NCBI GenBank assembly: GCA_935421135.1
Contig: OW285192.1
Coordinates: 3,887,501-3,951,500, forward strand
Direction of reading: 5' to 3'
Source: Bugulina stolonifera
Lineage: Eukaryota > Bryozoa > Gymnolaemata > Cheilostomatida > Bugulidae
DNA length: 64,000 nucleotides
Of this stretch, positions 311-30,988 are shown piece by piece. The position numbers and the translations under genes are program-made. A model generated the notes under the pieces. The model searched no databases. It had not been told where the DNA came from and saw only the letters and a list, made by a program, of their open reading frames with translations. The stretch's first letter is position 1; each line of letters starts with the position of its first letter.

Positions 311-3310
311 CTGTACCGAGAGCTGGAAATGCTATCGATCTCGTGTCTAACTTCTCACATATCTGCAGACATGACTTGGAAAACTTCTGCAGACTGACTC
401 CATGGTCTCCATCAATCAACCTGAACCCAAACAGGTACTTGGCAGGTAGGTTAGGTGCTGTCGTTACTGCAATCTTTCCTGCCCCATCAACTACAACAAA
501 AAAGAACTTGATTATGGTACGCAGATAGTGTAGATATCATACAGGGATCAACAGTGAACCTTCTGTATCTTTTCAAACAGAGAGTAGACATTGCAAGACA
601 TGCAATATTCAGACTCAAGGATTGTGTTTATCTACTGAATTTCATACTGGACTGAAATGGTAGAAGAAGACGCACAAGACAGGGTTAAATGGAGACTGAT
701 CCACAATGGTAACCCCACCTGATAGGAAAAGCCAGAAGAAGAAAAAAACTACTGAATTTCATATATTTGTGCACTGGCCTCACTTCTCCAGTAAGTAATT
801 TAAGCTTCCGGCATGCTAATGGTTAAATCAGTGACAAAACTGCTAAATCTAATAAATACATGTAAGTGGTTGACTGCTGTGAATATAACAGCAATCAGGC
901 TAAAGAATAAAAGTAATAGGAACTTATCGTAAGCCTGAGGTTTAAACAAATATCTGTAGTAAAACTGAGGAATTTTCAACTTCCTGTAACGGTTCTAACT
1001 CAGTATGTTGGTTAGCGGCTGTGAAAAGTTAAAAGACGTCACAATGTAATCTCATATAATACTCAGCCCCTCCTCACCTTCAACAGTTTCGATAGTCTCC
1101 ACATTGGTTGAGCCTGTGTTACACTTTCTATGTAGCATGCTTGAGGTATATCCTACAGTAATAATATATCCAAGTGATGCTCTGCTTGTCTTACAACAAG
1201 AAACATTACATTGCATTTTATAAACCCTACAGCAACAACTAGTCAAATCATACTCAGGAGTTTGAATGTCCAACTAACTAGGAGTCGTCTATTAGGAGCA
1301 GTCTGTAAGCAACCAAAGACTTAGTTCCACGCCTGTAGAAATAATCCATCCTTGACTGGGGTTTTTAACCCTGAGGCTAGATGGCACCTAATCATCTGGC
1401 ATAGTGGGCACACACAGTGCTCCAAGTTTTCTCTCTTAGCAAAGCAGTTCCAGCTCTTGGTCCCATTGGACCACTGGCCCGAACTGACTTTTAGGTTACC
1501 GTACACATATCGGTCACTATACCAGCTTGTAAAACCAATTCCTGGGCTGCTCACAAATAAAGTTTATTGCAAAAACTATCACCATCATTTACTGTTACTT
1601 ACCTCGACTGTGTGCCAACACATCAGCTGCATGCTGACTAAGATCTCCTCTAATTAACCTCATAATACAGTTATTCACTTGGATACAGCCTTGTAGGTTG
1701 ACAGGTGGCACAGGTGGCACTGGTTCAGGCTTAGCAGGTGGAGCAGGTGCCCTTGGAACTGACAGCTGTTGCAGACTATATTCTGCAGGGTTATGTACTT
1801 CATGAGGTTTCAGTGACTGTGTATCTATCTGCTCATAAATGTGGCCTGCAATATACATCCGGAATTGTTTTCTCTACCTCTTGTTTTCTCTACCTCGTTC
1901 ATTTAATGGATTTCAACAACGGAAAAAACACACTATCGTCCAAATGTCAATAAATTGATGGTGCATATAAAATCGGGTTAAGAAAATCTTGAATTAAGTC
2001 AAACCAACGTGGTGAAAATGCTACAGCAACTATCATTTCTACTACATGTAGCTTCATAAAATTCTGATGCTTTATGGTAGCTGAGCGGTTCGCAATCAAA
2101 ACTGTACAAACAATAACTGCCATGTTCGGTCGAATATTTGTAATATATCGTTTATAGAATATTTAGTGCAGAATGAGAAAATGAGGAGACATTTCTTTGG
2201 TGTCTTAAGTTTACGACTCCTAAAAATATACCAGGTATATCTATGACAAGCATCTTCAACAATACTGCAAGCAAAATAAGATATGAAACTACATGTACAT
2301 ACTCGTAACATACAATGTTTCCAATTTGAGGTTTTTCTTAAAATTTGAAAAGTGACCAACAGTAGTATAGTCAGTGCAGATCTACACAGACACCCGGCCC
2401 TTTCCGCGTCGTATTAGCCCTAGATCCAAAAACTCCCCGGGCGGACGACCACCCCACCCGTCCTCTCGCCCCTCCTCTCCCCTAAACCTCACTCTATGTG
2501 CAAAGCCCTAGAACCTACTCCCCCCGATCGCGGGTGGGGTTTCAAAAACCTCATCGGCTGTTCCGCGGAACCCAGTCTAAAGAGCAAACCCCTCGCCCCA
2601 TCCCACGGCTCGGGCGAGGGGGCGCGCGCGTACGCGCGCGCCCCCCCGCCCCGCGAACCCCACCCGTCCTCCCTCCACCCGTCCCCGCCCCTCCCCACCC
2701 CTCCCCACCCCAAACCCCTCCGCCTCGCCCTCCGCCTCGCGGCGGTTCTCGTTCGCGAGTCCAGCCGTGGTCCCACGCCGCCCTCCCCCCGCCCATCCCC
2801 CGCCCCTCCCCCGCCCTCCCGCCCCAACGACCCGTCGCGACCCTCGCGGGCGGACCGTCGGCTGGAGTAGGGTGAAGCGAAGGAAAATACGGGTTAGAGT
2901 AATGATAGGCTACACCCGTGCGGAGTGCCCGTGCAGAGTTTACGACGCTGACTATACTACTATAAAAAACTTACCGAGTGGTGGTGGTGGTGCTTCCGGA
3001 TGATTTCTTCGCCGGGGACTGTTGAGACTGAACTGGTCGGGGTGACACCGCACTCGCGCGCTCCTCCGTTCGAGCGCCCCCGGACCTTCGATGAAAGACT
3101 CGCGTCTTAACCCTCATTTTCCCCGGACCCTCCCCTAGGGGAATCGCCCGTCCCCGTGACGAGCGGCGAGAGAAAGTGAAGGCGGTGGCTCTTCCGCGCT
3201 TCAAACCGTAGACTTCGCGAGGAGGTTAGCCGACGACATCATCGCTCGGAGGGGTAGAAATAGAAATAGATAAACGGGATAGATGGATGCTTGTCTTCTC
3301 ATCGCCATCG

Positions 3311-3357
<47 letters not shown>

Positions 3358-6300
3358 CAAATAGACCCGCCTCTACGATGATGTCGTTGACTCGCCACCG
3401 ATTTCTTTGACCACCGCGTCCACTTTCCCCCGGGTAGCAAACTCCGATAGGGAGAGAGCGCATCGTGCGCGTGCGATGTCACCCCCCACCTACGAATGAA
3501 GACAATAGAAGAAATGTGAACTGATAAGGGGTGAGTATGAGCGGAAGCTGCGCTAGTATCGTCTACCCCTTTGGTTTGGAGAGGTAAATGGTTTTTAATG
3601 TATTAGCTAGTGTTTTATTGCTCGGTTTTAAGGCTACAACCGGTAAACCCTCCGTTTTGAGGACGGAGACCCCTTACAATAGAGAGTGAATGTGAAAAAA
3701 ATTATACGGGTATATGTACAAGGGTTATGATGCACTGTTCGTTTACTCTCCAATTTATCGAATGAAGTAGTCTCATCTCCGAGAAATCAGTACTAGCATT
3801 CTATAGGACTCGTACTCACCCCGTCTTCTGCAACCTTCCGCTTACCATAGAAGTAGGTGAGTCCGGTCTTTAGCTGGGTGTAGCTATACGTTTGGTTTCC
3901 TCTTCTGATAAAACCCCGATTGTCCCCTCTCACCGACTCCCCTGTCCTGAGCACGGAGAGGAACTTCTCTTTGGTTAGGGCGTTTCCTCTTTTGTTTAGT
4001 CCTTTGCTGCTATACTTGCTATCACCATCAGCGGACCAGCAAAAGTATGTTTTTGAGTTGAGCGCGATGACCCCCTCTCCCCGAAACTCCTCCTTAAACA
4101 GGCCGGGGGTTCGTGTTTCGTATCGTTGCACCTTCTCACAACATTCCCTCATCTCCCACTCTTGGCCAAGCACCTTGGTCGTGATAAAGTCTTCCTTGTG
4201 CCTATCGCAGAAGGGTCTGGGAAACCATCTACCATATTCTCTGTAGAACTCTTCTTTTTTATCTTTTCGGATGACCTCATCTATACTACGAGCACTCAGA
4301 GCCATGTAAGCGCTATCCGTGTCCATTTCTACGTACTCAAAGTCCTCTCTGCTGACGAATCTGTGAAAATAAAACGGACGGGTTGTAGGGGGGGGGGGGG
4401 GGGTTGGGGTTGACACCAAAGAATAAATAGAGAAGGATTTGATAAAATCTTTGTATAGTCCAGTTCTACTTACCTATCCATAAAGTCGTAGTAGAATTCT
4501 AGCATTCTCAACTTGGCTCTCTGGAGGATAACGAATCCTACGACAGATGGAACATCCATTCGAATCTAAAAGAAAGAAAGAGAGAGAGAGTTTACCCTAC
4601 CACTCAGAAAAAGTTTCGTCAAATCAAGAATCAAAATAAAAAAAAAAGATTGTCAACACTTGCCTTTTTCTTGTGAAGCTCTATCTCAAAGTAGTTTTCA
4701 TCAACTTCGTTTAGACTAGAAAAGTGCCTACTCCTCACTTTGACAGCCGCCTCCTCTACTGTCTCCACATACTTGACAGTCTTATGTTTCTCTTTATTTG
4801 TTATGGTCTTTCCGTAGGCTGAATTCCCAACGAGCTTGCTGGTGCTGGCCAAGAGGGCCAGGTCGGGGTTCACATCCCCACCTCTTCTTGCGTCTGAGAC
4901 CGAAGAACCAAAGTCTTTGTAGATGGCTCGTGGGATAAAGTGAACAAACTGATAGATCCTGGTAATTATCAAACCTTGATCTAGATACCATCTAGCCAGA
5001 TCGGAGAGTAGTGTGATTCGCTCGCCAAAAAGACTCCCCACGAGCATTCGCTGAGGTCTCTTCAAGAATCCGTTCTGTTCGGCAAAAGCGCGCATGTGTT
5101 CGCTAAGGTGTTCTCTTCCCACGTTTATATTCTTGAAAATAGGTGCCATCTCAGAGAACTTCGCTTTTAGCTCTTCGGGTACGGAAATGTCACACTCCAC
5201 TAAACCATAGTACTCTCCACTACGAATGTTATTGATTATCTTATCGAGGTTGACGTAACCCCTCTCCGGATAGAGAGAAGAAAAGAAGATGGCGAGAAAT
5301 GTCCTAACTTCTACATCCGAACGAACTCGCGCTTCCCACTCACACTGCCGAGTGGTGATGAGCTTATAGCCTAGAGCCTTGATGTAATCTTCTTTCCTTG
5401 CAGTGTCCACCCGGAGCTCTTCATTCGTCATGTTTCTGACACCTTTTCCGTTCCCTCCTAGCTCGCACTCGTGCCCATGCCAGTAGCAACCGTGGAATTG
5501 GTACACCGTCCGACTCTGTTCGCTATAACCATCCACTGGTAGGTTGTGACAGCCTATCCTCATTTCTCCTCCATTCTGTTGGTGAAGGATGACCTCTCCT
5601 CTCTTCCACGATTGGAACTCTAACCAACCATGCGCCACTTTGCTGAACTTTTTAATAGGTTCTAGAGCAAAGCCTCGGCTCTCTAGCCTCCGCCTGGGAT
5701 AACCCGTAGGCATATTCCCCATCATACAGTATAGGTAGAGGGCGTTGGCATCAACTCCCAGAATGGACCTACAGGGTTTTGCGGATGTGCCATACATCTT
5801 CTCTCGAATAGAGGTCACTCCAACTTCATGATGTCTGTGAAAGATAATGCTTGGCCCTCCCACGAGGTTATCGCGAAGAGTATGGTACAGACTTTTGCTC
5901 TCCTCATCGAACAGACATATGGGTTGCGAGTTGCAAAGTTCGTCTCGGAGAGACATTAACCTATGCAGCGGAAGAGTGGCTTGTGGAGGAGAGTAGCCAT
6001 AAGGTCGGGCCTCCACCTCCATAAACAACCATCTGATAGCCAAGCCTGGAAGCGAGATTGCGGATTTCAACATGTCAATACCCTTTTGTCGATAGATAGA
6101 GCTCTGACGTGCAATGGCCTCGATGAATGGGGCCACATCGAGGTTGTTGTACCAGATGAGAAAATCCCTGAACGTTTCCATGTTCTCTCTTTCCCACACG
6201 ACCTGACAGTGGTGATAATCTTGCTCGCTCAATTCTTGCTGAGTCAGCGAGTTGAAAAAACTCTCTCGGGGAGGGAGTCCATAATAATCCAACCTTCTCA

Positions 6301-9300
6301 GGGAATCTACCCAGTCGTAAGGAAAGAATCCCTTACTCTCTGACACGCCAAATGCCTTCAAGTATTTGGAGTAGTTGAATCCCGGTGCGATAAAGTTGCA
6401 TATGTCAAGGAACCTAAAACGTCTACTCTCCACGCAGGACATACTGTTAACACGCTTAACGATGAAGACAAAATCTTCTCCCTCCTCCTCTTGTAGAGAG
6501 CGAAGCAAAGGTCCCTTTAGTATATTTAGGTCATACTTTTGTGAGTTGAAACCAACCACCGGAACGCTGGAGATGTGCTGTTCTAACTCTCTTTCTAATC
6601 CGGAGAGACCGGACTTCACCCTGTAAGTCGAGACGTTAGAGAACTTTTCGTCAGCAAAGGCTTCTTCTCTATCCGCCCGATCCGCAAGGAAAGTAGAGAG
6701 TCGCTTGCGTACATCCCGGAATCTTTCTCCGAACAAATCTCCTGCCACGTCAGCAATCTTTGCTATGTAGTGGACGAATTGACGAATGCACTTCGTTCCA
6801 TCCTTGCTGTCGACACTCCTCACAAAGCACTTGGCCTGCTCAAACCCCGGGACGTTAGAACATACAGATATGCTCAGTAACTCGTGTCTTGCACTAAAAG
6901 TCATTGTGGAGGTGTTAGTTTGTAGGTTGTCTTTTGGCATGAAGCATTCAATATCATAGGTGATATAGTAGGGGTAGTATAAGAGGTCGGGGTTCACCAC
7001 CTCTATTCCCGCCACTCGCTTGAGTTTTGTGAATATGGTTGGCGGGGGTCCAAACGTTCCACCAGGGAAAACAAACACCGATGCTTCCTCTGGCGAGCAC
7101 TTATGTCGCCGTAGGCTGGACAAACGTGTGAAAGCGCCATCGCACAACTTGCAGGTGAAACATCTGGCAAACAAATCAACATTCTTTATCCAGCTGAAGT
7201 GGTTTTCGTACATGTTGACAAAGAGTTTACGGGCTTTGTTTCGTGCCCCAGATGACCAAACTATCGGAGCTACCCCCTCATCAGTTAGGCAGAAGACTAT
7301 TATAGATATGTCAAAATGATCTTCCAAGGCCAGCAGATCACTCGCGCCCACCCCGGGAAAGTCTGACAAAGTTGATGAGGGTGGGGAAGAAGATCTAGAT
7401 TGTCTCATGTATTGTTTAAACAAGCGATGTGTTGTGGTCTGAGAGGGGCGATGACAGCAACATCCCTTCTTTGGGTCGCAGTTACAGTCATACATCATGG
7501 CCAAACATCTAAAGAAACACAATTTGTCTGGGTAGGGACGGGCACCTCCTCTGGACCAAAAGTCTACATCTAGTGCTATCACATGTCGGTTGTTAAGTAT
7601 GTAGTCTGGGAGTTTGCTCACTACACCACCCACCTTGCCAATCTCTAGGAGTTTATAGATGTAGAATGTCAAATTTGCAATGTGACGTAAAACCCAAGCG
7701 GTGTTCGGTCTCCTTTGTGCTGACCTCTCTCTCAAGTCGAGCTCCTGCACAGATTCGCAAAACTCTCTCATCTCATTCTCTGCTCTGATCAGTCTTGGCT
7801 TGGGGAAGAACGCGGCATTGTTGCTTGATGAGTGAAAGTAGCGCAACTCTCCACTGGTCTTATGCTCGAGGATGACTCCAGCGCTACAGTTAATCTTCAC
7901 AGTACAAGGTACTCTCTTCCACATCGCTCTCAATTTAGTCCACACCTCTTCATCTCCTTCATCTTCACATTCCCCTCTCCACACTCGAACGTTGAGAATG
8001 TCTTCTACAGGACGAGAGTGTATTGTGGACCTGATCGAGCTCCAATAGCGGGCTAGTAGCACCCCCATCTCATCCCCCTCTTCAGCTGTTGGAGGTTTGG
8101 ACCAGAAAACATCATCAAACTTCTCTGCATCCCCCTCATCTTTTTCCGCCTTGGCCTCGCTATGAAATCGTCTCATGTGATGACCTAGCTTTCTCCTCCC
8201 ATCAAAACATCCGCCACAAACCGGGCACTTGTGTGGGTGAGCCTGTGCATGCATTCTCTTCGTGTGCCTGTCTAGAGAAAACGCTGTTTTGAGAACCAGA
8301 CCGCATAGTTGACAAGTGTGCTCGGCCTGACGAGAGCTCTCCCCCCCTATAAAAATACAAAATAGTAGGGTGTAAGTTATTCTTTTACCTCATACTACTA
8401 TTAGCAATCCACAATTGTTACCAACTACCTCATTTAGCACTAACCTTTTTTACTTGTTGACATCTCTGAACAGGTGCTGACTAGTAGGTAAGTGTCTCTG
8501 TTTAGTCTCCCTATAAAAAATATATAGTAGTAGGGTGTAAGTTAATTTTTTTTGTTTTTGGCTCAATAGCGTTATATACAATAGACACTTCACAATTGCT
8601 GCCGATTACCCTATTTAGCACTAACCTTATGTTGTACTTGTTGACATCTCTGATCAGGTGCTGACTAGTAGGTAGCTGTCTCTGTTTACTCTCACTCTGT
8701 TGACTAGAGGCTGATTGTTCATACTGCTAGAGTGAGAAACTCATACCTTAAATAGTAGTATTCAGTGGGCGGAGTCTAACCATTTCCCCACCCTTGGCAA
8801 TACCACCCCGATGTGAATCCGAAGCCTCCCGATGTGATTCCGAAGCTTCCCGATGCATCCCGATGTGATTCCGAAGCTTCCCGATGCATCCCGATGTGAA
8901 TCCGACGCTTCCCGATGCATCCCGATGTGATTCCGAAGCCTCCCGATGCATCCCGATGTGATTCCGAAGCTTCCCGATGCATCCCGATGTGAATCCGAAG
9001 CTTCCCGATGCATCCCGATGTGATTCCGAAGCTTCCCGATGCATCCCGATGTGAATCCGAAGCTTCCCGATGCATCCCGATGCATCCCGATGTGATTCCG
9101 AAGCCTCCCGATGCACCCCGATGTGAATTGACACATCGGGACACATCGGGATGCATCGGGAAGCTTCGGAATCACATCGGGATGCATCGGGAAGCTTCGG
9201 AATCACATCGGGATGCATCGGGAAGCTTCGGATTCACATCGGGATGCATCGGGAAGCTTCGGAATCACATCGGGATGCATCGGGAAGCTTCGGAATCACA

Positions 9301-18023: not shown

Positions 18024-18172
18024 GTACATGTACATGTACATGTACATATACATGTACATGTACATGTACATATACATGTACATGTACATGTACATATACA
18101 TGCACATGTACATGTACATATACATGTACATGTACATGTACATATACATGTACATGTACATGCACATGTATA
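18024..18172. repeat. (GTACAT)n / (ACATGT)n microsatellite
   Basis: ~150 bp of alternating TACATG and TACATA units right after the MITE. Short open frames on both strands (TCTCTC-, VHVHVH-, MYMYMY-type) are artefacts. Confidence 0.95.
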
Positions 18173-20788: not shown

Positions 20789-21424
20789 AGTAGTATAGTC
20801 AGTGCACTTCTATACAGACACGCACTCATTGACCCCTGTTTTCAACCAATCACAAGCCGGTATTTCCGATTTCAACCAATCACAGAAGAGCACAAAAATT
20901 TTGCACACGACCTTGCCAAGGTCACCCCAAAATCCCCCCTTCTGATTGGTCGAAAAAACATTTGCACACTTGACCCCAAACCCGGCCACGACCCCTTCCC
21001 TCCCTCCTTCCCACCCTCCTCCCCTCCCCCTCCCCCACCCCCACTCCTCCCTCCTCCCCGCCACCGCCCTCGTCCCGTCCGCACCACCGCCACCACCGCC
21101 ACCGCCGCCACCGTTGCCGCCACCACCACCGCCACCACCGCCGCCGCCACCGCCGCCACCGCCACCACCGCCACCACCACCACCGCCACCACCACCACCA
21201 CCACCGCCACCACCACCGCCGCCATCACCGTCATCACCCCCACCCCTCCTCCACCGCCGCCCACCCTCCCCCCCCCCCCGCAACCCCCACTCACCCGAAC
21301 GACCGATCGTTTGAGGCGGTCAAGCCGCGTCCGCCCACGTTGCGTGCGGCGCCGACCGTACACGTGGAGGCGACGCCAGTGCCCCGTATCCACCGGGCCA
21401 AGCGACTAGGCCGCGGCCCGCCGC
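20789..21424 (+). repeat. E2 left terminal inverted repeat
   Basis: Reverse complement of 30290-30982. The outer part has direct copies of CAACCAATCACA (about 20842 and 20873) and further CCAAT boxes; the inner part is a long CCACCG trinucleotide tract, shorter than in the right TIR, which accounts for the length difference (636 versus 693 bp). Large Pro/Thr/Ala- or Gly-rich frames here are artefacts. Confidence 0.93.
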
Positions 21425-21672
21425 TTCTCCTGCGCCCCCCACTCGAAAAGCTTGTGATCTAAACGAGCGAATTCCGCTGCACTTCGCCTATAGCTCTCAT
21501 CAGCGATAAGAAGAAGTACTACAGAAGGCTTGGTTTATGATGTGCATTGCAACATTAATAAAAAAACATGTAAAGACTGGGCTACAAATATACTGATGGA
21601 GTGAAAACCTCCACCTATATAGTAGAGCTTAGTAGGAGGGGTCTGACTAATTCCCCACCCATTATAGTACAA
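21425..21672. promoter_or_regulatory. E2 left interior with leftward TATA-like box
   Basis: No gene. A minus-strand TATATAGG (21614-21621) and the conserved block near 21639-21660 mirror the layout left of the E1 minisatellite. There it faces polB; here it faces only ~190 bp of non-coding DNA and the TIR. It may be a vestige of a deleted polymerase module or an element needed in cis. Confidence 0.5.
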
Positions 21673-22298
21673 CCCGATGTGCCCCGATGTTGCCCCGATG
21701 TGTCCCGATGTGCCCCGATGTTGCCCCGATGTGCCCCGATGTGTCCCGATGTTGCCCCGATGTGCCCCGATGTTGCCCCGATGTGCCCCGATGTTGCCCC
21801 GATGTGCCCCGATGTTGCCCCGATGTGTCCCGATGTTGCCCCGATGTGCCCCGATGTTGCCCCGATGTTGCCCCGACGTGCCCCGATGTTGCCCCGATGT
21901 GCCCCGATGTGTCCCGATGTTGCCCCGATGTGCCCCGATGTGTCCCGATGTTGCCCCGATGTGTCCCGATGTTGCCCCGATGTGCCCCGATGTTGCCCCG
22001 ATGTTGCCCCGATGTGCCCCGATGTTGCCCCGATGTTGCCCCGATGTGCCCCGATGTGCCCCGATGTTGCCCCGATGTGTCCCGATGTTGCCCCGATGTG
22101 TCCCGATGTTGCCCCGATGTGCCCCGATGTTGCCCCGATGTGTCCCGATGTTGCCCCGATGTGTCCCGATGTTGCCCCGATGTGTCCCGATGTTGCCCCG
22201 ATGTGTCCCGATGTTGCCCCGATGTGTCCCGATGTTGCCCCGATGTGTCCCGATGTGCCGCGATGTTGCCCCGATGTGCCCCGATGTTGCCCCGATGT
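21673..22298. repeat. E2 central minisatellite (CCCCGATGT units)
   Basis: About 58 tandem units of CCCCGATGT followed by G, TG or T, all in one orientation. The same CCCGATGT core builds the E1 array. Open frames (PDVAPMC, GTHRGNI repeats) are artefacts of the repeat. Confidence 0.95.
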
Positions 22299-22355
22299 CA
22301 ATCCAAAGCATACAAAGGGGTATTTTCTTATTGGATGATATATTAGAAAGTTTAG

Positions 22356-22364
22356 TATATAAGG
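22356..22364 (+). promoter_or_regulatory. Rightward TATA-like box without a gene
   Basis: TATATAAGG, preceded by ATTGGAT at 22330-22336 as in E1 (near 9574). Downstream there is only a 14-codon frame before the convergent protease gene, so any rightward transcript appears non-coding or vestigial. Confidence 0.45.
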
Positions 22365-22613
22365 AAGGTTTCTACAGTAGTAGAGCAGCTTGAGTTGGAT
22401 GAGTATTATTCCAAGATAGAAAAGATGCAGCTTTCTTCAGTAGTATTGTTTTATTACGAAGATAAATAGAGAAAAAATAAAAGAATCAAGAATCAAGCAG
22501 AAATCTAAAAAGCAAAGAAAAAAAAAGAATGCAGGTAAGATAAAAACTATTGGTCTCTTTTTTTAGTTATAGTAGTATAAAAACGAATTATAAGTAAGGT
22601 GAAGTATTTCTCT
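22365..22613. terminator. 3' region of the E2 minus-strand gene block
   Basis: AT-rich stretch after the protease stop. On the minus strand an AATAAAA polyadenylation-type signal lies at about 22449-22455, ~160 bases past the stop. Confidence 0.45.
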
Positions 22614-23141
22614 CTAGTCAAAGTGAAAAGGTGAAAAAAGCATAATATTGTTTACATGCGTTGTGAGTGAGAAAGTATTATTTCTTTTATTATAGTATAA
22701 ACGTTGTAATAGAGCTCTTATAGAATGATCTCGAACTCCTCCTTCTACTCTGCTTAGCCGTGTAATTATTCCCTCCATACTCCACCCTCGAGCTCGAAGG
22801 AGACAGAACAAGATGCAGTAGTCTCCACACACGTTAGTACTCTCTTCTTGTAGACACTCTCCATTCCATACTATTGGTATTCCCCATTGTTGTAACATCT
22901 TACCCACATCAGGATAAATAGAAGGGGGGAGTCCATAGGAGTCAAAATACTCTATTTCTTTTCCATTCGAAAAAACAGAGATCCAATGCTCGCCACTTTT
23001 CTCACTTGCTTGAGTGTTGAAAACAAAAGATCCAGATGGGGAGAAGGAGTCTAAGAAGTGATCCCTTGGCATAACCCCTCTAAAGGAGGTTGATGAGAGT
23101 TTATCATCAGATAGAATATTCGAGATTGAGAATGTATCCAT
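22614..23141 (-). CDS. PRO: Adenovirus-type cysteine protease (maturation protease)
   Basis: 175 residues. The catalytic pattern of the adenain/Ulp1-like family is complete: H52 (EHWISVF), D67 (YFDSYG), glutamine 98 (CLQEES) and C105 (NVCGDYCILFC). In Polintons this enzyme is thought to process capsid proteins as in adenoviruses. It starts six bases after the major capsid stop codon, so it is the last gene of the minus-strand block. No internal stops and normal length for the family. Confidence 0.93.
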   Translation of the reverse strand: MDTFSISNILSDDKLSSTSFRGVMPRDHFLDSFSPSGSFVFNTQASEKSGEHWISVFSNGKEIEYFDSYGLPPSIYPDVGKMLQQWGIPIVWNGECLQEESTNVCGDYCILFCLLRARGWSMEGIITRLSRVEGGVRDHSIRALLQRLYYNKRNNTFSLTTHVNNIMLFSPFHFD

Positions 23142-23146
23142 TCTTT

Positions 23147-24493
23147 TTACATCATCCCGGCTACCATAGATACTTCGTGATTTGCATTCAAGTTGATAAT
23201 GTCATCTTTTTCTTCGTATACAAACAGTCCAAGTGTATTTTGAGTTTGATTAGCAAATGCTAGATTAATAGATAGACTCCCATTTGATAACAAGTGAAAG
23301 TTGTCATCACACAAATCTCCTGAAATGTCAAAGGCGTAGAGAGCAGCGCAGGACTTGTATTTGCTAGGGGAGATCTCATTCCCTGTGTCAGCATCGGATG
23401 TATTTGTGACAGTGAACAAATTCATGAATTCACGAGCAAACTTTCCACTTGCAAAGTTTGGTTCATATCTTCGGGTCACTGGTGTTCCATCAATTAGTAG
23501 TTCTAATGAACTTAGGTTGTTATGTCCGAATTTGAAGGGATTTTGCTTATACATTCCACTCTTTCCAGTATGGTTGACTAGTCTGACAAAGACTCTGTTT
23601 GGCTTCTGTCCCGCTTGATCAAAGTTTACTCTCACTGACTGGTGTCCAGCAGGGATGACATGGAAATGAGTTTTTATTCGGTCAATTGGTAGTTTTATAG
23701 ACTCTTGTTGCACAACCCAAACATCCATTTGTGCTTTTTGTAATGCTGGATTGGCTTGTACACGTCGAATCCACAATTCTGTCTTAGTTATAGAAATCTT
23801 CGCCCCTCCTGCAGGGTTGTCTGTCTCTGCTAAGAGGGCCATTTGTGGAATAGCACGTTGTAGAGTAAGGCGAGAGCGAACTCCTGGTGGAATAAGTTTT
23901 CCTTGAGAAAACATACTCAACCTAGGTCTCCCATAGAAACTCATCTCTTTACTTGTGGCTATAAGTTTCTTTCTTTTTTCAATCACTTCGGGAGGAATAC
24001 CATCATAGTCTTCTCCAGTTCCTTCATCCTCCATCCACCCACTCCCAACTTTCATATATGTGCTCTTAGCATCTTTACCATAGTTTAAGAGATTCTCGAC
24101 ATAAGCTCTATGTCCATAGTTTGGTTCATACTCAACATCTTGCCCAGCCAGTTGAACAGTGGCAGAAGAAAAGAGACTGTGCATAAAATTGTCTCCTGGA
24201 ACAACCTTTAGTTCTTCTTCCGCAGCTAGTACGCTTCCATCAGCCTTGCTCACCTTTACTGTGGTGTGTAAGTAAGACCTTGATAGATCTGTGTAGAGTT
24301 CGTCTGCGGGTGGGATGTTAAATTCAATAGTACCATCAGGGGAGTCCGTAACAGGAGCCAAAGGTACCCACTCACCTCTGAGCACGCTAGTATGAGTTGG
24401 CGGAGTGGCAAATAAGTCAAAACTGGAGTCAACCGTGTCTGGAGAGTCTTCAGAAACCTTGGAGAGAGAGATGGCTCGATGTGTGACGGACAT
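23147..24493 (-). CDS. MCP: Major capsid protein, double jelly-roll
   Basis: 448 residues, intact. Hallmarks of the Polinton major capsid family are visible near the N-terminus (DELYTDLSRSYLHTTVKVSK at 65-84, NFMHSLFSSATVQLAG) followed by HRAYVENLLNYG. The second half has VRVNF..., LELLIDGTPV and a C-terminal strand-rich region (NLAFANQTQNTLGLFVYEE). In relatives it forms the pseudo-hexameric capsomers of an icosahedral shell. It is immediately followed by the protease and preceded by a TATA-like box at 24581-24588. Recognition is by family pattern, not alignment. Confidence 0.9.
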   Translation of the reverse strand: MSVTHRAISLSKVSEDSPDTVDSSFDLFATPPTHTSVLRGEWVPLAPVTDSPDGTIEFNIPPADELYTDLSRSYLHTTVKVSKADGSVLAAEEELKVVPGDNFMHSLFSSATVQLAGQDVEYEPNYGHRAYVENLLNYGKDAKSTYMKVGSGWMEDEGTGEDYDGIPPEVIEKRKKLIATSKEMSFYGRPRLSMFSQGKLIPPGVRSRLTLQRAIPQMALLAETDNPAGGAKISITKTELWIRRVQANPALQKAQMDVWVVQQESIKLPIDRIKTHFHVIPAGHQSVRVNFDQAGQKPNRVFVRLVNHTGKSGMYKQNPFKFGHNNLSSLELLIDGTPVTRRYEPNFASGKFAREFMNLFTVTNTSDADTGNEISPSKYKSCAALYAFDISGDLCDDNFHLLSNGSLSINLAFANQTQNTLGLFVYEEKDDIINLNANHEVSMVAGMM

Positions 24494-24580
24494 GTTCGAT
24501 AGTGTGAGAGTTTTTCCATCTAGTACTTGCTCCTACAAACGTTTGTCTAAGAGTGGGGAGTGGTGAGTATAGATGTGGAT

Positions 24581-24588
24581 TATATATT
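24581..24588 (-). promoter_or_regulatory. TATA-like box before major capsid gene
   Basis: TAAATATATAATCC on the minus strand, ~90 bases upstream of the capsid ATG at 24493, in the only gap (105 bp) between it and the previous gene. Confidence 0.5.
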
Positions 24589-24598
24589 TATCTTTCAT

Positions 24599-25009
24599 TT
24601 AGTCAAAAACTGTTTTTCTTCCTTTACGTTTCTTCTTTGTAGACTTTTGACTAACTCGTGCACGTTTGGCGGGTGGTTCACGTAGTTCGTCTTCTACATC
24701 ACCTAGAAGATCCCCACCAGCATCACGAAAACGTTTCGCTGCAGAAGATTTGAAGTTTTCTCCCTTGATTACATCTCCCAGAACCGAAGCTCCAGTAGTC
24801 AATAGCTTTTTCCCAATAGTTTTGGCACCATTCTTTAGCATGGGAAGGACCCCTCGGGCCAGTCCAGAAAAGAGTGAGCCGATCCCATTACCCGTCATAA
24901 TAGGTTTTCCCCTGTACACACTCATTCCCTCTCCCACCTGGTTTGCATAATAGTCTTCATACATCTCACCTGACTCATCAGGAAAATATGGAACTATGCG
25001 AGGGACCAT
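24599..25009 (-). CDS. Small basic virion-type protein (pVI/pX-like)
   Basis: 136 residues. It has a glycine-rich amphipathic middle (GNGIGSLFSGLARGVLPMLK, then KKLLTTGASVLGDVIKGE) and a strongly basic tail (KRARVSQKSTKKKRKGRK). Small proteins of this kind sit between the minor and major capsid genes in many Polintons and have been compared with adenovirus internal proteins VI/X. Here it starts 18 bases past the penton-like gene's stop. The likely role, as an internal capsid or DNA-associated protein, is inferred from position and composition. Confidence 0.7.
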   Translation of the reverse strand: MVPRIVPYFPDESGEMYEDYYANQVGEGMSVYRGKPIMTGNGIGSLFSGLARGVLPMLKNGAKTIGKKLLTTGASVLGDVIKGENFKSSAAKRFRDAGGDLLGDVEDELREPPAKRARVSQKSTKKKRKGRKTVFD

Positions 25010-25027
25010 GTTATTTCTCTGTCTGTA

Positions 25028-25774
25028 CTATTTCTCTCCACGCGGTCTGAAACGAACCGTCAGCACAACCTTTCCACTGCGAAATGAGACCCTTTCTCCG
25101 TCATCACGTCTTATATCTACCTCGATGAGGTCTGTGCTTGTATTAGACACTGGAGAGTATTGAACATTCGAAAACTCAAAGAAAACGGTGCTATTTCTTT
25201 CACTCTCTGTTATAGGAACTGTGCGAAGTAGGGGGACTAGACTATCTCCAACAAGTCTTGGTGAGACTACGGAGGAGTAGACATAGAGGGATGTAAAACC
25301 AGCATTGATGTCTGGAGGGTTTTGACTCCTGTTGATTTCCGCAGCATATTCTACATCAGGCTTGAATCCCAACACCCACGCAACATCACGTGACATCATG
25401 ACAGAGTGTTCCTGTTCTCTCAACATGAGGAAAGTTTCATTCCGTAGACTATCATAGTAAAAGCTCACTACTTTTTCTAAGTCGTAGTTTATTAGTATTC
25501 TATTGATCTCACTCAAAAGTTCACCCATGGAAGCATACCTTCCACTCCTGATTTCACATTTTCGTTCGACTCCATCTTTTGTATTCGTAACCACTACATA
25601 GCCATCTTCTACATTTCTCCAGGATGCGGGGTACTGAATGTCAAGTAACCCAACCTCCCACTGAGATGAGTGAAGCTTCAACGACTTGGCTAGCTTCGTA
25701 ATGAAGTGAGCATTGGTGTTTGTGTCACTCCCACCGATGCGGACATTTGAGGTAAGTGTGACATTGAAGGCCAT
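25028..25774 (-). CDS. mCP: Minor capsid (penton-like) protein
   Basis: 248 residues, intact, starting MAFNVTLTSN. Family features include the early IQYPASWRNV segment (…WEVGLLDIQYPASW), DVAWVLGFKP, and a C-terminal region of alternating strands (VDIRRDDGERVSF...VVLTVRFRPRG). This matches the single-jelly-roll minor capsid (formerly PY) of Polintons, which forms the vertices in the predicted virion. It lies in the standard order penton-basic protein-major capsid-protease. Confidence 0.85.
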   Translation of the reverse strand: MAFNVTLTSNVRIGGSDTNTNAHFITKLAKSLKLHSSQWEVGLLDIQYPASWRNVEDGYVVVTNTKDGVERKCEIRSGRYASMGELLSEINRILINYDLEKVVSFYYDSLRNETFLMLREQEHSVMMSRDVAWVLGFKPDVEYAAEINRSQNPPDINAGFTSLYVYSSVVSPRLVGDSLVPLLRTVPITESERNSTVFFEFSNVQYSPVSNTSTDLIEVDIRRDDGERVSFRSGKVVLTVRFRPRGEK

Positions 25775-25810
25775 CTTTGAGAGTGAGCAAAACTGAACTT
25801 ACATATTGAA

Positions 25811-25816
25811 TTTATA
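25811..25816 (-). promoter_or_regulatory. TATA box before minor capsid gene
   Basis: TATAAA on the minus strand 37 bases before the ATG at 25774, implying a very short leader. Confidence 0.5.
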
Positions 25817-25828
25817 CTACCTTTGATT

Positions 25829-26891
25829 TTACACAAACTGACTAGAATCTATCCAACTATTAAATGAAGAGGGATAACCACTCCATTTCACGAAACTCTC
25901 TTCTTTTCCTCTCCTTCTCCGCTTACGTATTACTTTCTCAACTCTAAAGATTTCAGGTAGGTTAACATGTTGCAATTCTTGTGCATAGAATGTTCCATCT
26001 ACTCCTTCTTTGTTTAGGTCTTCCAGTGTATAGACAGGGGGTGAGGTATGTGCCTTGACTGCTTTTATGGTGAATATCTCGGTTGACCAGTTTGGTGTGA
26101 ACCCTCGCTCTACGGGCCATCGAAATCCGAACATGATCACCTGGTGAATATTTTACTCTTGTTTTCTTTAACCATCGTTTAGGTGAGAACTCATTTAACC
26201 GAACCCAAACTTCTTCTTGATTATCGTAATCAACCTCAATAGGTTTCATTCCAATTGACCTATTAAAACTGTTGTTATATCCTTGGACTAGGTCTTCTAC
26301 ATCTTCTAAGTAGCGTCCATCTCCTCTATAAGTGAGTAGACGATGAATTTTCCCTCTCAATGTTCTATTAAAGCGTTCAACAAGAGCAGCCTTGATGATC
26401 TCATTCTCAGAGGTGAAATGGCTAACTCCATACTTCTTTAGCACTTCGCTCACCCTTCTGTTTAGGAACTCCTTACCTTTATCAGTTTGTATTTGTCTAA
26501 AGCTTTCATTTTCGAATAGAGAGATGAGTGCATTGGACACTTCCAGACCAGACTTGGAATGAAGAGGAAAGACCCATGCTTTCCGTGAGAAGGCATCTAT
26601 GCAGGTGAGCAAAAATGTTACTCCATCATTTGAGTCCTTGTGCGCACGCACATCCACGAGATCTGCCTGGAGTTGTTCACCAATCCCACTCACAAACGTT
26701 TTTCTCCTTGTAAACTTCATTCTAATCGGGCGATGAAGAGTGTATGCGTCTTGACTTCTCAACCACTTCTCAACATCATTCTCATTAATACCAGGAGGAG
26801 AAGCTAAAACTAACTTTCTCTTTCCTCCAAAAGATGGTGGTTGAGGAGGGGAGAAGTAAATATCGCGTAGACCTTCATCTATATCATCCAT
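25829..26891 (-). pseudogene. INT: Retroviral-type integrase with chromodomain, one frameshift
   Basis: The first frame (26891 down to about 26120) holds the rve core with D77 (QADLVD), D137 (QTDKGKEF) and E172 (ALVERFNRTL), a D-D-35-E-like arrangement. It then enters the beta domain (SPGDHVRIS). The frame breaks near 26110-26130; homologous sequence continues in another frame (ERGFTPNWSTEIFTIKAV) to a C-terminal chromodomain-like end (EKVIRKRRRRG...FVKWSGYPSSFNSWI) with a stop at 25829. In Polintons this enzyme inserts the linear element and makes the 6-bp duplication seen at both E1 and E2. The catalytic triad is intact. The break could be real decay or a single-base assembly error. It is listed as a pseudogene only because of this break. 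Confidence 0.85.
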
Positions 26892-27438
26892 CTTTCTTTT
26901 TTACTATCGCTTGCAAGAGGGGTTTTAGGAAGCTTTCGCCTAGACCTAGTTTTGATAGGACTTCTATTATCACCCTTCCTACTCCAACGTGCGCCAGCTT
27001 CTGACTTCTCTGGTTTTGTTTCTCTCCTATATGGGTATGGTAGTGGTGACCTTGAGCCACTTCGCCTCTTTTCATCATCTCTTTTTTTCTCTCTTGTGCT
27101 TCTTCTTCTCTTTGTCTCCATGTATGCATTTCATTAAACCTAGTGTTAATTCCCTCTAATGTATTATACAACTCCTGCTGGGGATGGCGTGATCTCTCCA
27201 ACTCTTTTAGGAACTTATTCATTCTATGAGTATGTTGCTCTAGCTGAGAGTAGATGTCTGTATTAGGGTTTTTGAGGTTAGATATTACATCTTTTCTGCT
27301 TTTTTCTGCCAGGAGCAGATCCCCATTTGTAGAGAGTGAGGGTAGATGCTCTCCTTCTTTTTTGTTGTTTCTACTATTCATTGATTCATATGTATGTTTA
27401 TCCATAAGAAGATACTTTTTAGAAAACTTGAGACTCAT
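26884..27438 (-). CDS. Coiled-coil protein of Polinton type, unknown role
   Basis: 184 residues from the ATG at 27438, which follows the preceding gene's TGA by one base (TGAAATG). A GTG further upstream is less likely. Starts with KFSKKYLLMDKHTYE, a motif found near the start of a conserved small Polinton protein. A charged helical stretch follows (LEQHTHRMNKFLKELERSR, RQREEEAQERKKEMMKRG), then a hydrophobic C-terminal helix (LGLGESFLKPLLQAIVKKK). It overlaps the integrase start slightly. Possibly structural; function unknown. Confidence 0.6.
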   Translation of the reverse strand: MSLKFSKKYLLMDKHTYESMNSRNNKKEGEHLPSLSTNGDLLLAEKSRKDVISNLKNPNTDIYSQLEQHTHRMNKFLKELERSRHPQQELYNTLEGINTRFNEMHTWRQREEEAQERKKEMMKRGEVAQGHHYHTHIGEKQNQRSQKLAHVGVGRVIIEVLSKLGLGESFLKPLLQAIVKKKDG

Positions 27439-27439
27439 T

Positions 27440-27838
27440 TCACCTTTGTCTACCACCTAATCCACCAAGCACACCTCCGAGTAAACTTGCCAATGGCTTC
27501 AAAAGAAGACCTAAAAATCCACCACGTTGTAGGATTAACTTTTTCTGCCTCACACTAGTACGAGAGTTGGTGAGATCCTCAATGGCCCTTCTATGTCGGC
27601 GTAGAGAGTTCAACTGAGCGGTAGTCAGATGAACATTACCTAATAATACATTTCTAGCACACTCAACAAGAGCGAGTATAAGGTCTTTGTTAGCCTCAGC
27701 AATGGTTGAATCTCTGATGGTTGCAGATGCTTTTGTCAGTGCATATATACTCAAGGCATTCCTCCTCAACCTTGGAGAATATTTGGGCGAATTAATGTAT
27801 CTCATGCTTGATGATGGATGTGCTCTCTCCGAGTCCAA
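27440..27838 (-). CDS. Conserved small Polinton protein with hydrophobic tail
   Basis: 132 residues. The middle is helical and basic (RRHRRAIEDLTNSRTSVRQK), followed by KLILQRGGFLGLLLKPLASL and a glycine-rich hydrophobic end (LGGVLGGLGG). The QRGGF + hydrophobic tail arrangement recurs in small proteins of many Polinton-type elements. The tail suggests membrane contact or pore formation (inference). Translation is probably coupled to the next gene through the TGAAATG junction. Confidence 0.6.
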   Translation of the reverse strand: MDSERAHPSSSMRYINSPKYSPRLRRNALSIYALTKASATIRDSTIAEANKDLILALVECARNVLLGNVHLTTAQLNSLRRHRRAIEDLTNSRTSVRQKKLILQRGGFLGLLLKPLASLLGGVLGGLGGRQR

Positions 27839-27870
27839 GACAGTTTATGGAGAGAGTAGAGATGTGAATG

Positions 27871-28529
27871 CTACTTATATTCCAGGGTATTCGGGATATA
27901 TACAGTCATGGGAGAGTGCTCAGAAGCAAAATTACCGATCAGTCTAGCCCACTCCGGGGTTTCCTGGCGAAGATTCAAGAATAGAAAAGAGTGTGGCTTA
28001 CGTGTAGCATCACTAAAAGCTTCTTGAACAGCTCTTGTACTCTGAGGAAAAGCCTGCTTTGCAAGATTGGTAACAGACATTCCGTCTCTGGGGTTCTTGA
28101 ACAAGAAAAAGTACTGCGAGTTTATTGACACTGTTCTATTATCTTTCGGGAAAAGGTTCTGTAGTAAGAAAAAGACGCTTATGTTCAGGTGGTGACTGAA
28201 CTTTGTAAAGATTGCATTAGTAGTCTCTTTCCCCCGACTTCACCCATCAAGTCATCAATGATGAGCCAGCGATTCTTCCCATCACGCTCTATATCCATCT
28301 CTACATCAATGAGTCCTGAATGAAACCTTACTTTATCTTTGTAATCCTCAAAGCGGCGTTGCCAAACTCCATAGCAGTAAATGATTTCAACAGGAGTGGG
28401 TGAAGCAATTTCATCAACTCTCTTAATAAGACTAAATAGTAGTTTCGTTTTTCCACTCCCTGTTGGACCACAGACTAGAGCTGTGAAGGGACTCTGCAAG
28501 CGAAGATCGATTTCTTGGTGTGAACGCAT
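27871..28529 (-). pseudogene. ATP: FtsK/HerA-type packaging ATPase, one frameshift
   Basis: The first frame starts at 28529 and shows Walker A (CGPTGSGKT) near residue 20 and Walker B (RWLIIDDLM) near 90. It breaks around 28195-28215. Homologous sequence continues in another frame with the expected conserved block (SHHLNISVF, LLQNLFPK, SQYFFLFKNPRD) and ends at 27871. The enzyme is the genome-packaging ATPase of the PRD1/adenovirus-like lineage. Both nucleotide-binding motifs are intact. No GT-AG intron would restore frame at the break, so it is a true indel or an assembly error. Confidence 0.85.
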
Positions 28530-28839
28530 GCTGATCCAGTTGAGTAGCTAATAGAGTTGTGTTTGTTTTTAAAAAGTGTCCTTGCTTAAGTACTCCTTTG
28601 TCTTTGCCATTGGGTGGTTCCCTATCACTTAGATATGTGTAAACTGATGGGGATAAAGATGAGCAAGAAAGTATAAATAGTATTATGATTATGTAGAATG
28701 TGAACTTCTTTCTTTTGTTGCTTCTCTCTCCTATTTGCTCCCTTCCCTCTTCAGCAGAGATAGCTACTACTTCATCTAAGAGACCATCAGCCACATCTTC
28801 ATAATTCTCATTTCTACATACTACCTCTTGCTTTGACAT
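28432..28839 (-). CDS. Small single-span membrane protein, unknown
   Basis: 135 residues. N-terminal ~38 residues are acidic; then a basic KKRKK-like segment precedes one hydrophobic helix (FTFYIIIILFILSC), followed by a hydrophilic tail. The last ~30 codons overlap the ATPase start in another frame. No family recognised. Topology and position among virion genes suggest a minor membrane-associated component, which is inference only. Confidence 0.5.
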   Translation of the reverse strand: MSKQEVVCRNENYEDVADGLLDEVVAISAEEGREQIGERSNKRKKFTFYIIIILFILSCSSLSPSVYTYLSDREPPNGKDKGVLKQGHFLKTNTTLLATQLDQHAFTPRNRSSLAESLHSSSLWSNREWKNETTI

Positions 28840-28879
28840 CTTGCCCTTGTTTGAGAGAACAATTGGAATCTATACACTT

Positions 28880-29917
28880 TTATTCATCATTACTTTCTCC
28901 TGTTGGAACCCACTGTGGCAGTTTAGTATCTTCCCCTTCTGCTTTTGCATCATCATCATCTAGTTTGTTAGCCAGGTGGGGAATTATGTGATCAATAATT
29001 GATACACTATCCATTTTTTCTTCTTCTTCTTCTTTTTGCAAACGCTCGATTTCCATCATTAACCTCTCTTTTTCCATTCTTTCCTCTGTTAACTTTTTTT
29101 CTAAGAAGGCAATGCGATTTGTTCTTCTCTCTTTTCTTGCATCAATTCTCTGTTGCATCTCTAGTGCTTCTTTCCACCCCAGTGCTCCCGCCAATTCCAC
29201 TTTCTTTAGTGCCAATTCTTGTTCTATCTTTCTAATCTCTTGTTCCCTTTTGTCACACATTTCAACCTCTTCTTTAGTTTCTACATGAGTTTGCTCTTCT
29301 ATCATAATCTGGTTATTCTCTCCTGTAGAAGTCTCTCTCACTTCCACCCTAGCTTCTCCTGGTGAAGGGCTTCTTATCTCCTCTAACCCGTTTTTGGATG
29401 AATCTAGTTCTCCAATGTCACACATTTCAGCCTCTTCTATCATAACCTGGTTAGTCTCTCCTGTAGAAGTCTCTCTCACCTCTAATCTAGCATCTCCTGG
29501 TGAAGGGCTTCTTATCACCTCTAACCCATTTTTGGATGGATCTAGTTCTCCAAACAATCGCCCTGCATATAGCGTATTACCTCTACTAAGAATTAAACCA
29601 GGGATGCTTTCTTCATTGTAACTCCTCTTCGCTCGCGATTTCTCCTTCCCATCCTCAAAGCGACATCTTCTTGCCCCATCCTTTAATATGTTCAATACTC
29701 TATGATAGAGTTCATTCTTTGAGCCTTCCCCACCAGGTTCATTATCCAGATATAGTAAGAAGTGAGTGTTAAAAGTGGCCTCCGCTCCCACACCAGTTTC
29801 ATCCCAGTTTCTATCTTCAATAATCTTCTCAACCTCCACTCTACACCAGGTTGACAACTCCGCATTCCTAAGAAGGAGTAAGGGAGAAGAAACGGATGCG
29901 TTTTTTGTTTCTACCAT
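28880..29917 (-). CDS. Coiled-coil protein with internal 46-residue duplication, unknown
   Basis: 345 residues. The N-terminal ~110 residues look globular (WCRVEVEKIIEDRNWDE, HFLLYLDNEPGG). Residues ~123-168 and ~169-208 are a tandem duplication (GELDPSKNGLE…IRSPSPGDAR / GELDSSKNGLE…IRSPSPGEAR). Residues ~220-305 form a strongly charged coiled coil (KRE...ELALKKVELAGALGWKEAL, then EKKLTEERMEKERLMMEIE). The start overlaps the preceding stop (ATGGTAG). No family recognised; possibly a structural or fibre-like component. Confidence 0.6.
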   Translation of the reverse strand: MVETKNASVSSPLLLLRNAELSTWCRVEVEKIIEDRNWDETGVGAEATFNTHFLLYLDNEPGGEGSKNELYHRVLNILKDGARRCRFEDGKEKSRAKRSYNEESIPGLILSRGNTLYAGRLFGELDPSKNGLEVIRSPSPGDARLEVRETSTGETNQVMIEEAEMCDIGELDSSKNGLEEIRSPSPGEARVEVRETSTGENNQIMIEEQTHVETKEEVEMCDKREQEIRKIEQELALKKVELAGALGWKEALEMQQRIDARKERRTNRIAFLEKKLTEERMEKERLMMEIERLQKEEEEEKMDSVSIIDHIIPHLANKLDDDDAKAEGEDTKLPQWVPTGESNDE

Positions 29918-30201
29918 AGATGAAAATCTTGACCTGTTAAGTCTTCATAACAAAGTGCCATTTTCCTCAACTTTTCCTCTCCTATCTTAAAAGGGATATT
30001 CATAGAGAGTGAAAGTGTTCTAAAATAGATGGCAAGCTCTACCACTAAGGAATTATGAGCAAGTCTGTCAACCCAATACCACATCCATGGACTATTCGTT
30101 TCTTCGATATTACTTTTGATCATATAATCCCATACAGACTTCGGGAGGACTTCCTTTAAAAGTACATATCTCCCCGCTGCTCCTTTGGTGAGAAAAGACA
30201 T
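29911..30201 (-). CDS. Small protein, first gene of the E2 block, unknown
   Basis: 96 residues, MSFLTKGAAGRYVLLKEVLP..., with a tryptophan-rich middle (SPWMWYWVDRLAHNS). A good TATA box (TATAAAAG, 30255-30262) lies 54 bases upstream of the ATG, next to the right TIR. Its stop overlaps the next start. No family recognised. Confidence 0.55.
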   Translation of the reverse strand: MSFLTKGAAGRYVLLKEVLPKSVWDYMIKSNIEETNSPWMWYWVDRLAHNSLVVELAIYFRTLSLSMNIPFKIGEEKLRKMALCYEDLTGQDFHLW

Positions 30202-30254
30202 GTTTGCTATGACTAAGTCTTCTTTGTATTAATACTATCATCAGTCAAACTTAT

Positions 30255-30262
30255 CTTTTATA
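30255..30262 (-). promoter_or_regulatory. TATA box at the right end of E2
   Basis: TATAAAAG on the minus strand just inside the right TIR, positioned to start the minus-strand gene block. Confidence 0.6.
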
Positions 30263-30289
30263 GTCCCACCCCAGTGGAACTCGGAATGG

Positions 30290-30623
30290 GCGGCGGGCCG
30301 CGGCCTAGTCGCTTGGCCCGGTGGATACGGGGCACTGGCGTCGCCTCCACATGTACGGTCGGCGCCGCACGCAACGTGGGCGGACGCGGCTTGACCGCCT
30401 CAAACGATCGGTCGTTCGGGTGAGTGGGGGTTGCGGGGGGAGGGTGGGCGGCGGTGGAGGAGGGGTGGCGGTGATGACGGTGATGACGGTGATGGCGGCG
30501 GTGGTGGTGGCGGTGGTGGTGGTGGTGGTGGCGGTGGTGGTGGTGGCGGTGGTGGCGGTGGCGGCGGTGGCAGCGGCGGTGGTGAGGGCGGTGGTGGCGG
30601 CGGCGGTGGCGGCGGTGGCGGCG

Positions 30624-30655
<32 letters not shown>

Positions 30656-30982
30656 GGTGGCGGTGGCGGCGGCGGCGGTGGCGGTGGTGCGGACGGGACG
30701 AGGGCGGTGGCGGGGAGGAGGGAGGAGTGGGGGTGGGGGAGGGGGAGGGGAGGAGGGTGAGAAGGAGGGAGGGAAGGGGTCGTGGCCGGGTTTGGGGTCA
30801 AGTGTGCAAATGTTTTTTCGACCAATCAGAAGGGGGGATTTTGGGGTGACCTTGGCAAGGTCGTGTGCAAAATTTTTGTGCTCTTCTGTGATTGGTTGAA
30901 ATCGGAAATACCGGCTTGTGATTGGTTGAAAACAGGGGTCAATGAGTGCGTGTCTGTATAGAAGTGCACTGACTATACTACT
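30290..30982 (-). repeat. E2 right terminal inverted repeat
   Basis: Partner of 20789-21424; its inner GGT/GGC tract is ~60 bp longer, consistent with slippage after insertion. Ends GACTATACTACT before CTCGTA. Confidence 0.93.
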
Positions 30983-30988
30983 CTCGTA
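30983..30988. repeat. Target site duplication of E2, right (CTCGTA)
   Basis: Perfect match to 20783-20788. Confidence 0.95.

Follow-up and report, generated by a model that had tools for sequence, protein, structure and literature searches.

The window analyzed here, a 64,000-nt stretch of the Bugulina stolonifera genome, contains two complete Polinton-like elements, E1 and E2, of which the first encodes a family-B DNA polymerase and the second an integrase, a packaging-type ATPase, and a capsid protein. In the genome set (234,951,659 bases in 27 contigs, one of which is referred to as C1), E1 and E2 represent two of three regular element classes, designated S1, S2, and S3, that carry separate gene sets between common ends. 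These results suggest that the three classes are probably segments of one segmented Polinton.

Two complementary elements in the window

A first-pass annotation of the same sequence had described both elements as complete, with long terminal inverted repeats and 6-bp target duplications; their coordinates, repeats, and duplications were all recovered here. E1 comprises the following features:

2361..12018, no strand: E1, class S1 (polymerase) element, 9658 bp
2355..2360, no strand: left target duplication, ACCAAC
12019..12024, no strand: right target duplication, ACCAAC
2361..2904, plus strand: left inverted repeat, 544 bp
11474..12018, minus strand: right inverted repeat, 545 bp
2938..2961, minus strand: second, internal occurrence of the end sequence (AGTAGTATAGTCAGCGTC...), lying about 600 bp from one E1 end
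3793..4473, minus strand: open frame containing motif C (DTDS) of the polymerase, seemingly a second exon
4631..8254, minus strand: family-B DNA polymerase (PF03175) in a frame of 1207 amino acids (aa), with a Vsr-like insert between motifs A and B
8806..9575, no strand: CCCGATG repeat array, palindromic
9704..10198, plus strand: 164-aa frame, the first 84 codons of which recur in six of seven fetched S2 copies
10296..11021, plus strand: 241-aa S1 gene (the S1 second gene), fold unconfirmed

The features of E2 are:

20789..30982, no strand: E2, class S2 (integrase and capsid) element, 10194 bp
20783..20788, no strand: left target duplication, CTCGTA
30983..30988, no strand: right target duplication, CTCGTA
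20789..21424, plus strand: left inverted repeat, 636 bp
30290..30982, minus strand: right inverted repeat, 693 bp
21667..22298, no strand: CCCGATG repeat array
22614..23141, minus strand: candidate protease of 175 aa with a CGDYC cysteine motif and a weak match to PF00770 (E = 0.07)
23147..24493, minus strand: 448-aa predicted major capsid protein, assigned to the double-jelly-roll type through a fold search
24599..25009, minus strand: 136-aa frame without a family match, a candidate for a minor virion protein from its position alone
25028..25774, minus strand: 248-aa frame, candidate minor capsid protein by a motif, unconfirmed
25962..26891, minus strand: rve integrase, frame broken late in E2; elsewhere the open frame spans 359 codons and includes a chromodomain
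26884..27438, minus strand: 184-aa frame
27440..27805, minus strand: 121-aa frame
27871..28547, minus strand: packaging-type ATPase, motif GPTGSGKT, frame broken in E2
28432..28839, minus strand: 135-aa frame
28880..29917, minus strand: 345-aa frame, no informative family match

The inverted repeats of E1 (544/545 bp) are 99.8% alike and those of E2 (636/693 bp) are 89% alike, while the 6-bp target duplications of both elements are perfect. Comparison of the E1 and E2 ends confirmed that they are nearly the same, being identical over the first 18 bases and in agreement at 30 of the first 33, as had been reported. The elements begin with AGTAGT and finish with ACTACT, which fits the (AGT)2 // (ACT)2 motif of vertebrate Mavericks.

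The long E1 frame matched the family-B polymerase profile PF03175 above its cut-off (E = 2.2e-6), and together with motifs A, B, and C, this bears out the annotation of polB in E1. The separate downstream frame containing motif C (DTDS) is apparently a second exon of the polymerase gene. A search with one sequence pattern for ExoI in the S1 polymerase found nothing. A Vsr-endonuclease-like stretch lies within the polymerase at approximately 5462-5518, between motifs A and B, and the same stretch occurs in its relatives. These number 1547, and among the 120 listed, some are from sea anemone, sea cucumber, sea star, sea urchin, and lancelet. Family-B polymerase was seen in S1 only; it may be protein-primed, as Polinton polymerases are proposed to be. 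The second E1 gene had been described as OB-like, a label that found no support, as the 241-aa protein has no Pfam match, its best Protein Data Bank (PDB) match is at E = 0.65, and its structural model is unusable, with a predicted local distance difference test (pLDDT) score of 31. No integrase or capsid match was found in E1 by the Pfam scan.

In E2, the integrase matched the rve family (PF00665, E = 1.3e-11), and in another S2 copy, L021, both PF00665 and a chromodomain (PF00385) were above their cut-offs. The ATPase of L021 matched Pox_A32 (PF04665) with 25.9 bits against a cut-off of 22.8; both the integrase and the ATPase were found in S2 only. The copy of E2 in the window is itself defective, with the integrase open for 312 codons and the ATPase for 120 codons. 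In fetched S2 copies, the integrase frame of 359 codons is open in all seven and the ATPase frame of 225 codons in six of seven.

The 448-aa protein is predicted to be a double-jelly-roll major capsid protein, a Polinton feature, on the basis of a structural model (pLDDT 59.8) that matched the PDB folds of PBCV-1 (3.1e-15), Sputnik (4.0e-14), and mavirus (3.8e-13), with a template modeling score of about 0.3. The model also matched a bracovirus-labelled Cotesia protein (26% identity, 2.1e-21). A PDB search with the capsid sequence gave no match, and seven sequence homologues were identified. Thus, the first-pass gene set for E2 stands with respect to the integrase, the ATPase, the major capsid protein, and the lack of a polymerase match, which extends to every S2 copy read. 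It stands less firmly for the protease, where the family match is weak and the CGDYC motif resembles that of the adenovirus protease, and the proposed minor capsid protein has no family match in Pfam, PHROGs, or NCBIfam. The 184-aa frame differs between S2 copies, as its relatives elsewhere in this class give matches split into two pieces. The PHROGs and NCBIfam scans yielded nothing beyond Vsr-like or generic ATPase matches, viral contig scans revealed no relatives of the capsid and polymerase alignments, a phage record search returned nothing informative, and the Pfam scans contained no helicase family above its own cut-off.

Element classes and separation of gene sets across the genome

The common 18-base end occurs 678+693 = 1371 times in the genome, while the reversed control occurs 0 times, which excludes chance. 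The first 100 end sites, all on C1, form mostly inverted pairs 9-11 kb apart. Beyond the common end, two continuations predominate: namely, GATCT in S1 (650) and CTTCTA in S2 and S3 (690), with other kinds at 31 of the 1371. Such numbers rule out one-off deletion copies as an account of E1 and E2. Genome-wide counts with 40-base markers, allowing up to two mismatches, gave 263 for the polymerase exon, 262 for the S1 second gene, 198 for the integrase, 200 for the ATPase, and 144 for the S3 gene. Given approximately 680 elements, each close to 10 kb long, the three classes would make up near 3% of the genome.

Among 25 elements fetched from C1, 11 carry S1 genes, seven S2 genes, and six S3 genes, and no element combines genes of two sets (0/25), apart from one shared promoter/first-exon block described below. 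The remaining element (L024) is S1-ended and contains only gene fragments, at both sides. All 12 fetched S1-ended loci have the internal end copy about 600 bp inside one end, which was found in none of 13 first pieces of S2 and S3.

The separation was then followed along C1, where neighboring ends were paired by hand into 63 end-bounded pairs and nine unpaired ends were set aside. Markers of two classes were found together in none of the 63 pairs, ruling out a marker-bearing fused S1+S2 element on this contig. Polymerase and/or S1 second-gene markers are present in 25 of the 30 GATCT pairs; of the 33 CTTCTA pairs, 19 have integrase and/or ATPase markers and nine have the S3 gene. End type agrees with gene class in every marker-holding pair (53/53). 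The classes are also regular in size: 21 of 23 S1 pairs with the second gene measure 9.1-9.95 kb, 15 of 19 S2 pairs 10.0-11.1 kb, and seven of nine S3 pairs 8.9-9.6 kb, while only two of the 63 pairs (15.0 and 17.2 kb) exceed 14 kb. Integrase markers were found within 20 kb of S1 second-gene markers in four of 60 cases. A 40-bp pair of head-to-head ends was seen at C1:14505550-14505589.

The first-pass annotation had proposed a bipartite set. E1-type and E2-type copies are indeed regular, co-occurring forms with target duplications, each at about 200-260 copies, but the set has three classes rather than two. The third, S3 (144 marker copies), has S2-type ends and was read at loci L014, L017, L022, L027, L029, and L032+L040. 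It encodes a protein of 466/467 aa that is rich in serine and threonine, with an N-terminal part rich in cysteine and histidine; no homologue was found for residues 40-175. Other S3 frames include a 93-aa frame and a short ankyrin-like exon with a match below the cut-off (E = 0.0027), and no polymerase, integrase, or capsid genes were found in the S3 copies read. The 15.0-kb element (L032+L040) is an S3 copy with a long insert that gave 0 matches to 14 S1/S2 protein queries. The two outcomes named in that annotation as contrary to its proposal, namely a common full-length element with E1 and E2 as rare one-offs, or E1 copies never accompanied by E2-type copies, were not observed: the full gene set in one element is absent from the 25 elements read and the 63 pairs on C1, and both types are abundant in the genome.

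Insertion, exchange between classes, and selection

In addition to E1 and E2, perfect 6-bp target duplications flank all 24 copies tested, that is, every copy for which both ends were fetched (the right end of L033 lies outside). The target center is pyrimidine-purine (Y-R) at 15 of 17 S1, 12 of 15 S2, and six of six S3 sites, compared to 0.27 in the window flanks. Three S2 copies on C1 (L046, L047, and L048, near 14.21, 14.31, and 14.37 Mb) have the same right flank, which probably reflects one duplicated host locus, so that some copies would not be separate insertions. With this triplicated site counted once, the Y-R center is found at 10 of 13 S2 sites and at 31 of 36 across all classes (p = 2e-13). 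A flanking A2/T5 preference is less even (S1 16/34, S2 20/30, S3 10/12). No copy of S1 that was read has an integrase match, yet S1 generates the same kind of duplication and therefore needs an integrase in trans. That one enzyme inserts all classes is well supported, albeit indirectly.

A second feature common to the classes is the CCCGATG repeat, present in 28-59 copies in 24 of 25 loci as one clustered array per element, compared to one copy in 32 kb of flank. The 25th locus, L035, is a first piece, and similar repeat frames occur in its second piece, L036. S1 and six of the seven fetched S2 copies also have in common the promoter/first-exon block containing the start of the 164-aa frame, at 93-99% identity, which reflects sequence exchange between the two classes. 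In S2, the block lies at L021:8609-8980, at L015:1753-2124, and at four further loci, and it is found neither in L033 nor in the E2 copy of the window.

Copies within each class are closely similar. Divergence in the pieces compared is 0-0.2% within one S1 lineage (S1a), 0.1-0.8% within the other (S1b), and about 4% between them; it is 0-0.4% within the main S2 group and 1-2% from this group to the rest of S2, while S3 copies differ by 0.1-1.1%, with similar or lower values for 'OB' and the second pieces of S2 and S3. S1a and S1b align collinearly for 9.8 kb (94%), indicating that the polymerase-only layout predates their split. Between these lineages, the ratio of nonsynonymous to synonymous substitution (dN/dS) is 0.14 for the polymerase (four comparisons), 0.05-0.06 for the motif-C exon, and 0.15-0.17 for the second gene. 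For the S2 capsid gene, dN/dS is 0.15-0.21 in five of seven comparisons, and for the protease it is 0.36 and 0.55, all resting on few changes. Frames are mostly open: the polymerase (at least 1238 codons) in seven of 11 S1 copies, the second gene in nine of 11, the S2 integrase in 7/7, the capsid gene and the ATPase each in 6/7, and the S3 protein in 6/6. A stricter, alignment-based count is lower for several genes (e.g., polymerase 4/10 and the 184-aa frame 1/8). The S1 and S2 genes are under selection.

In the remainder of the window, a Pfam scan of nine flank frames gave a single weak match, to C-type-lectin. Two other inverted repeat pairs, 93-94% alike, lie in the flanks (14324-14573 with 34687-34936, and 17548-17741 with 42260-42453), and positions 59001-61000 have a strong GC skew (-0.44) at low GC.

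Probable segmentation, its alternatives, and known systems

A segmented virus would be expected to spread its needed genes, with no overlap, over regular molecules that have their ends in common, and this pattern was found, with one promoter/first-exon block shared by S1 and six of seven S2 copies. S1, S2, and S3 are likely to be segments of one segmented Polinton, with insertion of every segment predicted to depend on the S2 integrase. In this scheme, the integrase, with its rve core and chromodomain, would bind the common AGTAGTATAGTCAGTGCA end and insert every segment with a 6-bp duplication. Replication of the linear segments would start at the inverted repeats and be carried out by the S1 polymerase, protein-primed in the way that has been suggested for Polintons, and the S2 ATPase and capsid proteins would pack the segments, of about 10 kb, one per particle. 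The CCCGATG array would perhaps mark segments for packaging, and S3 would ride along and supply accessory functions. It is about as likely as not that the whole forms a three-part integrating virus of the double-jelly-roll lineage, in which one segment of about 10 kb serves replication, another the capsid and integration, and a third accessory functions, all of them singly packaged and having one end and one CCCGATG packaging/replication mark in common.

Several observations weigh against segmentation. That the S1 polymerase copies every part, that S2 packages them, and that virions form are inferences, and the main gap is that a diverged full-length Polinton may be present elsewhere in the genome. 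Ten of the 63 C1 pairs hold no marker, and the nine unpaired ends are outside the count. Of 68 ATPase markers on C1-C4, eight have a polymerase marker at less than 20 kb, one of them at less than 10 kb; judged by their ends, this closest case and one near C1:14.2 Mb are separate neighboring elements, and the other six are known from markers alone. The largest pair on C1, the S2-ended 17.2-kb pair at C1:26262243-26279407, is likewise known from markers alone, with integrase and ATPase markers and none for the polymerase, the S1 second gene, or S3. The inverted repeats of S1 are unrelated to those of S2 and S3 beyond the first 18-42 bases. In two of the seven capsid comparisons, dN/dS is 0.41 and 1.05, with few changes; S3 has too few changes for an estimate, and the ATPase is likewise without one. 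Nine Polintons lacking the major capsid protein, protease, and ATPase together are also described in the cited passages (PMC4028283).

The last point bears on the chief alternative, in which the three classes are complementary non-autonomous derivatives and a complete Polinton (rare, diverged, lost, or an outside virus) supplies everything in trans. In the passages cited, a Polinton is a single element of 15-20 kb, with the capsid set missing from some (PMC4028283), and a diverged helper in the genome could have escaped, with the 17.2-kb pair known only by its markers. Such a helper appears unlikely, however, given that both gene sets occur together in none of the 25 elements read and none of the 63 pairs, that the S1 layout is older than the split of the two S1 lineages, and that the S1 polymerase (7/11) and S2 capsid (6/7) genes are mostly open and selected, which an all-supplying helper would not require. 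A still less probable explanation takes S1 and S2 for two mobile families, independent of each other, whose ends became shared by recombination or capture, S1 replicating itself and borrowing an integrase and S2 being a virus with another polymerase. The unrelated interior of the inverted repeats and the unequal copy numbers (about 262, 199, and 144) fit this explanation; the end, duplication length, target preference, and type of CCCGATG array common to all classes, the S1/S2 block exchanged at 93-99% identity, and the absence of polymerase matches from all S2 copies read argue against it. An assembly or deletion artefact, in which a single element was broken in two, is scarcely credible, being contradicted by the 24 perfect duplications and by hundreds of regular copies, with nothing found in its favor.

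Polintons are treated as single and self-sufficient; a three-part Polinton, if segmentation is correct, would show that the lineage can become segmented. It would be the first segmented member of the double-jelly-roll lineage, as far as searches of open-licence PubMed Central papers reach: no segmented Polinton was found among the matches listed, in agreement with the earlier statement that a bipartite Polinton is not known to have been described. Some 10-kb 'incomplete' Polintons elsewhere may then be partners rather than deletion copies. The copies are young and abundant, so segmentation is testable within one species.

In the cited passages, Polintons/Mavericks (adintoviruses) have the same (AGT)2...(ACT)2 ends, 6-bp duplications, and long inverted repeats, as well as a family-B polymerase, an rve integrase (with a chromodomain here in L021), a packaging ATPase, and a double-jelly-roll capsid (PMC8097293, PMC4028283, PMC11071296). 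Unlike them, the elements reported here divide these genes over separate units of 9-11 kb, with the extra class S3. Vertebrate Mavericks are described with two gene modules, the ATPase grouped with the polymerase, and with intact copies free of introns (PMC8097293), whereas here the ATPase is found with the capsid genes and the polymerase has an apparent intron. The capsid-lacking Polintons (PMC4028283) resemble S1 in what is absent, but S1 also lacks the integrase, and the missing genes are on an abundant partner with the same ends. Polydnaviruses of parasitoid wasps likewise keep segmented DNA as integrated genome copies (PMC2646287, as excerpted); their particles are replication-deficient, in contrast to the polymerase, integrase, and capsid genes and the 6-bp duplications at many sites found here. 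The bidnaviruses (Bombyx mori bidensovirus and relatives), with two segments or, in some, up to twelve (PMC11071296), are segmented DNA viruses whose PolB and terminal inverted repeats are held, in the passage cited, to derive from a Polinton (PMC4061559). They differ in having single-stranded DNA, a parvovirus-type capsid, a superfamily-3 helicase, and segments of about 6 kb, while the present elements, known from integrated copies alone, have a predicted double-jelly-roll capsid and an integrase and no helicase family above cut-off. A three-part Polinton, if confirmed, would be the counterpart to that proposed Polinton origin of bidnavirus PolB and repeats.

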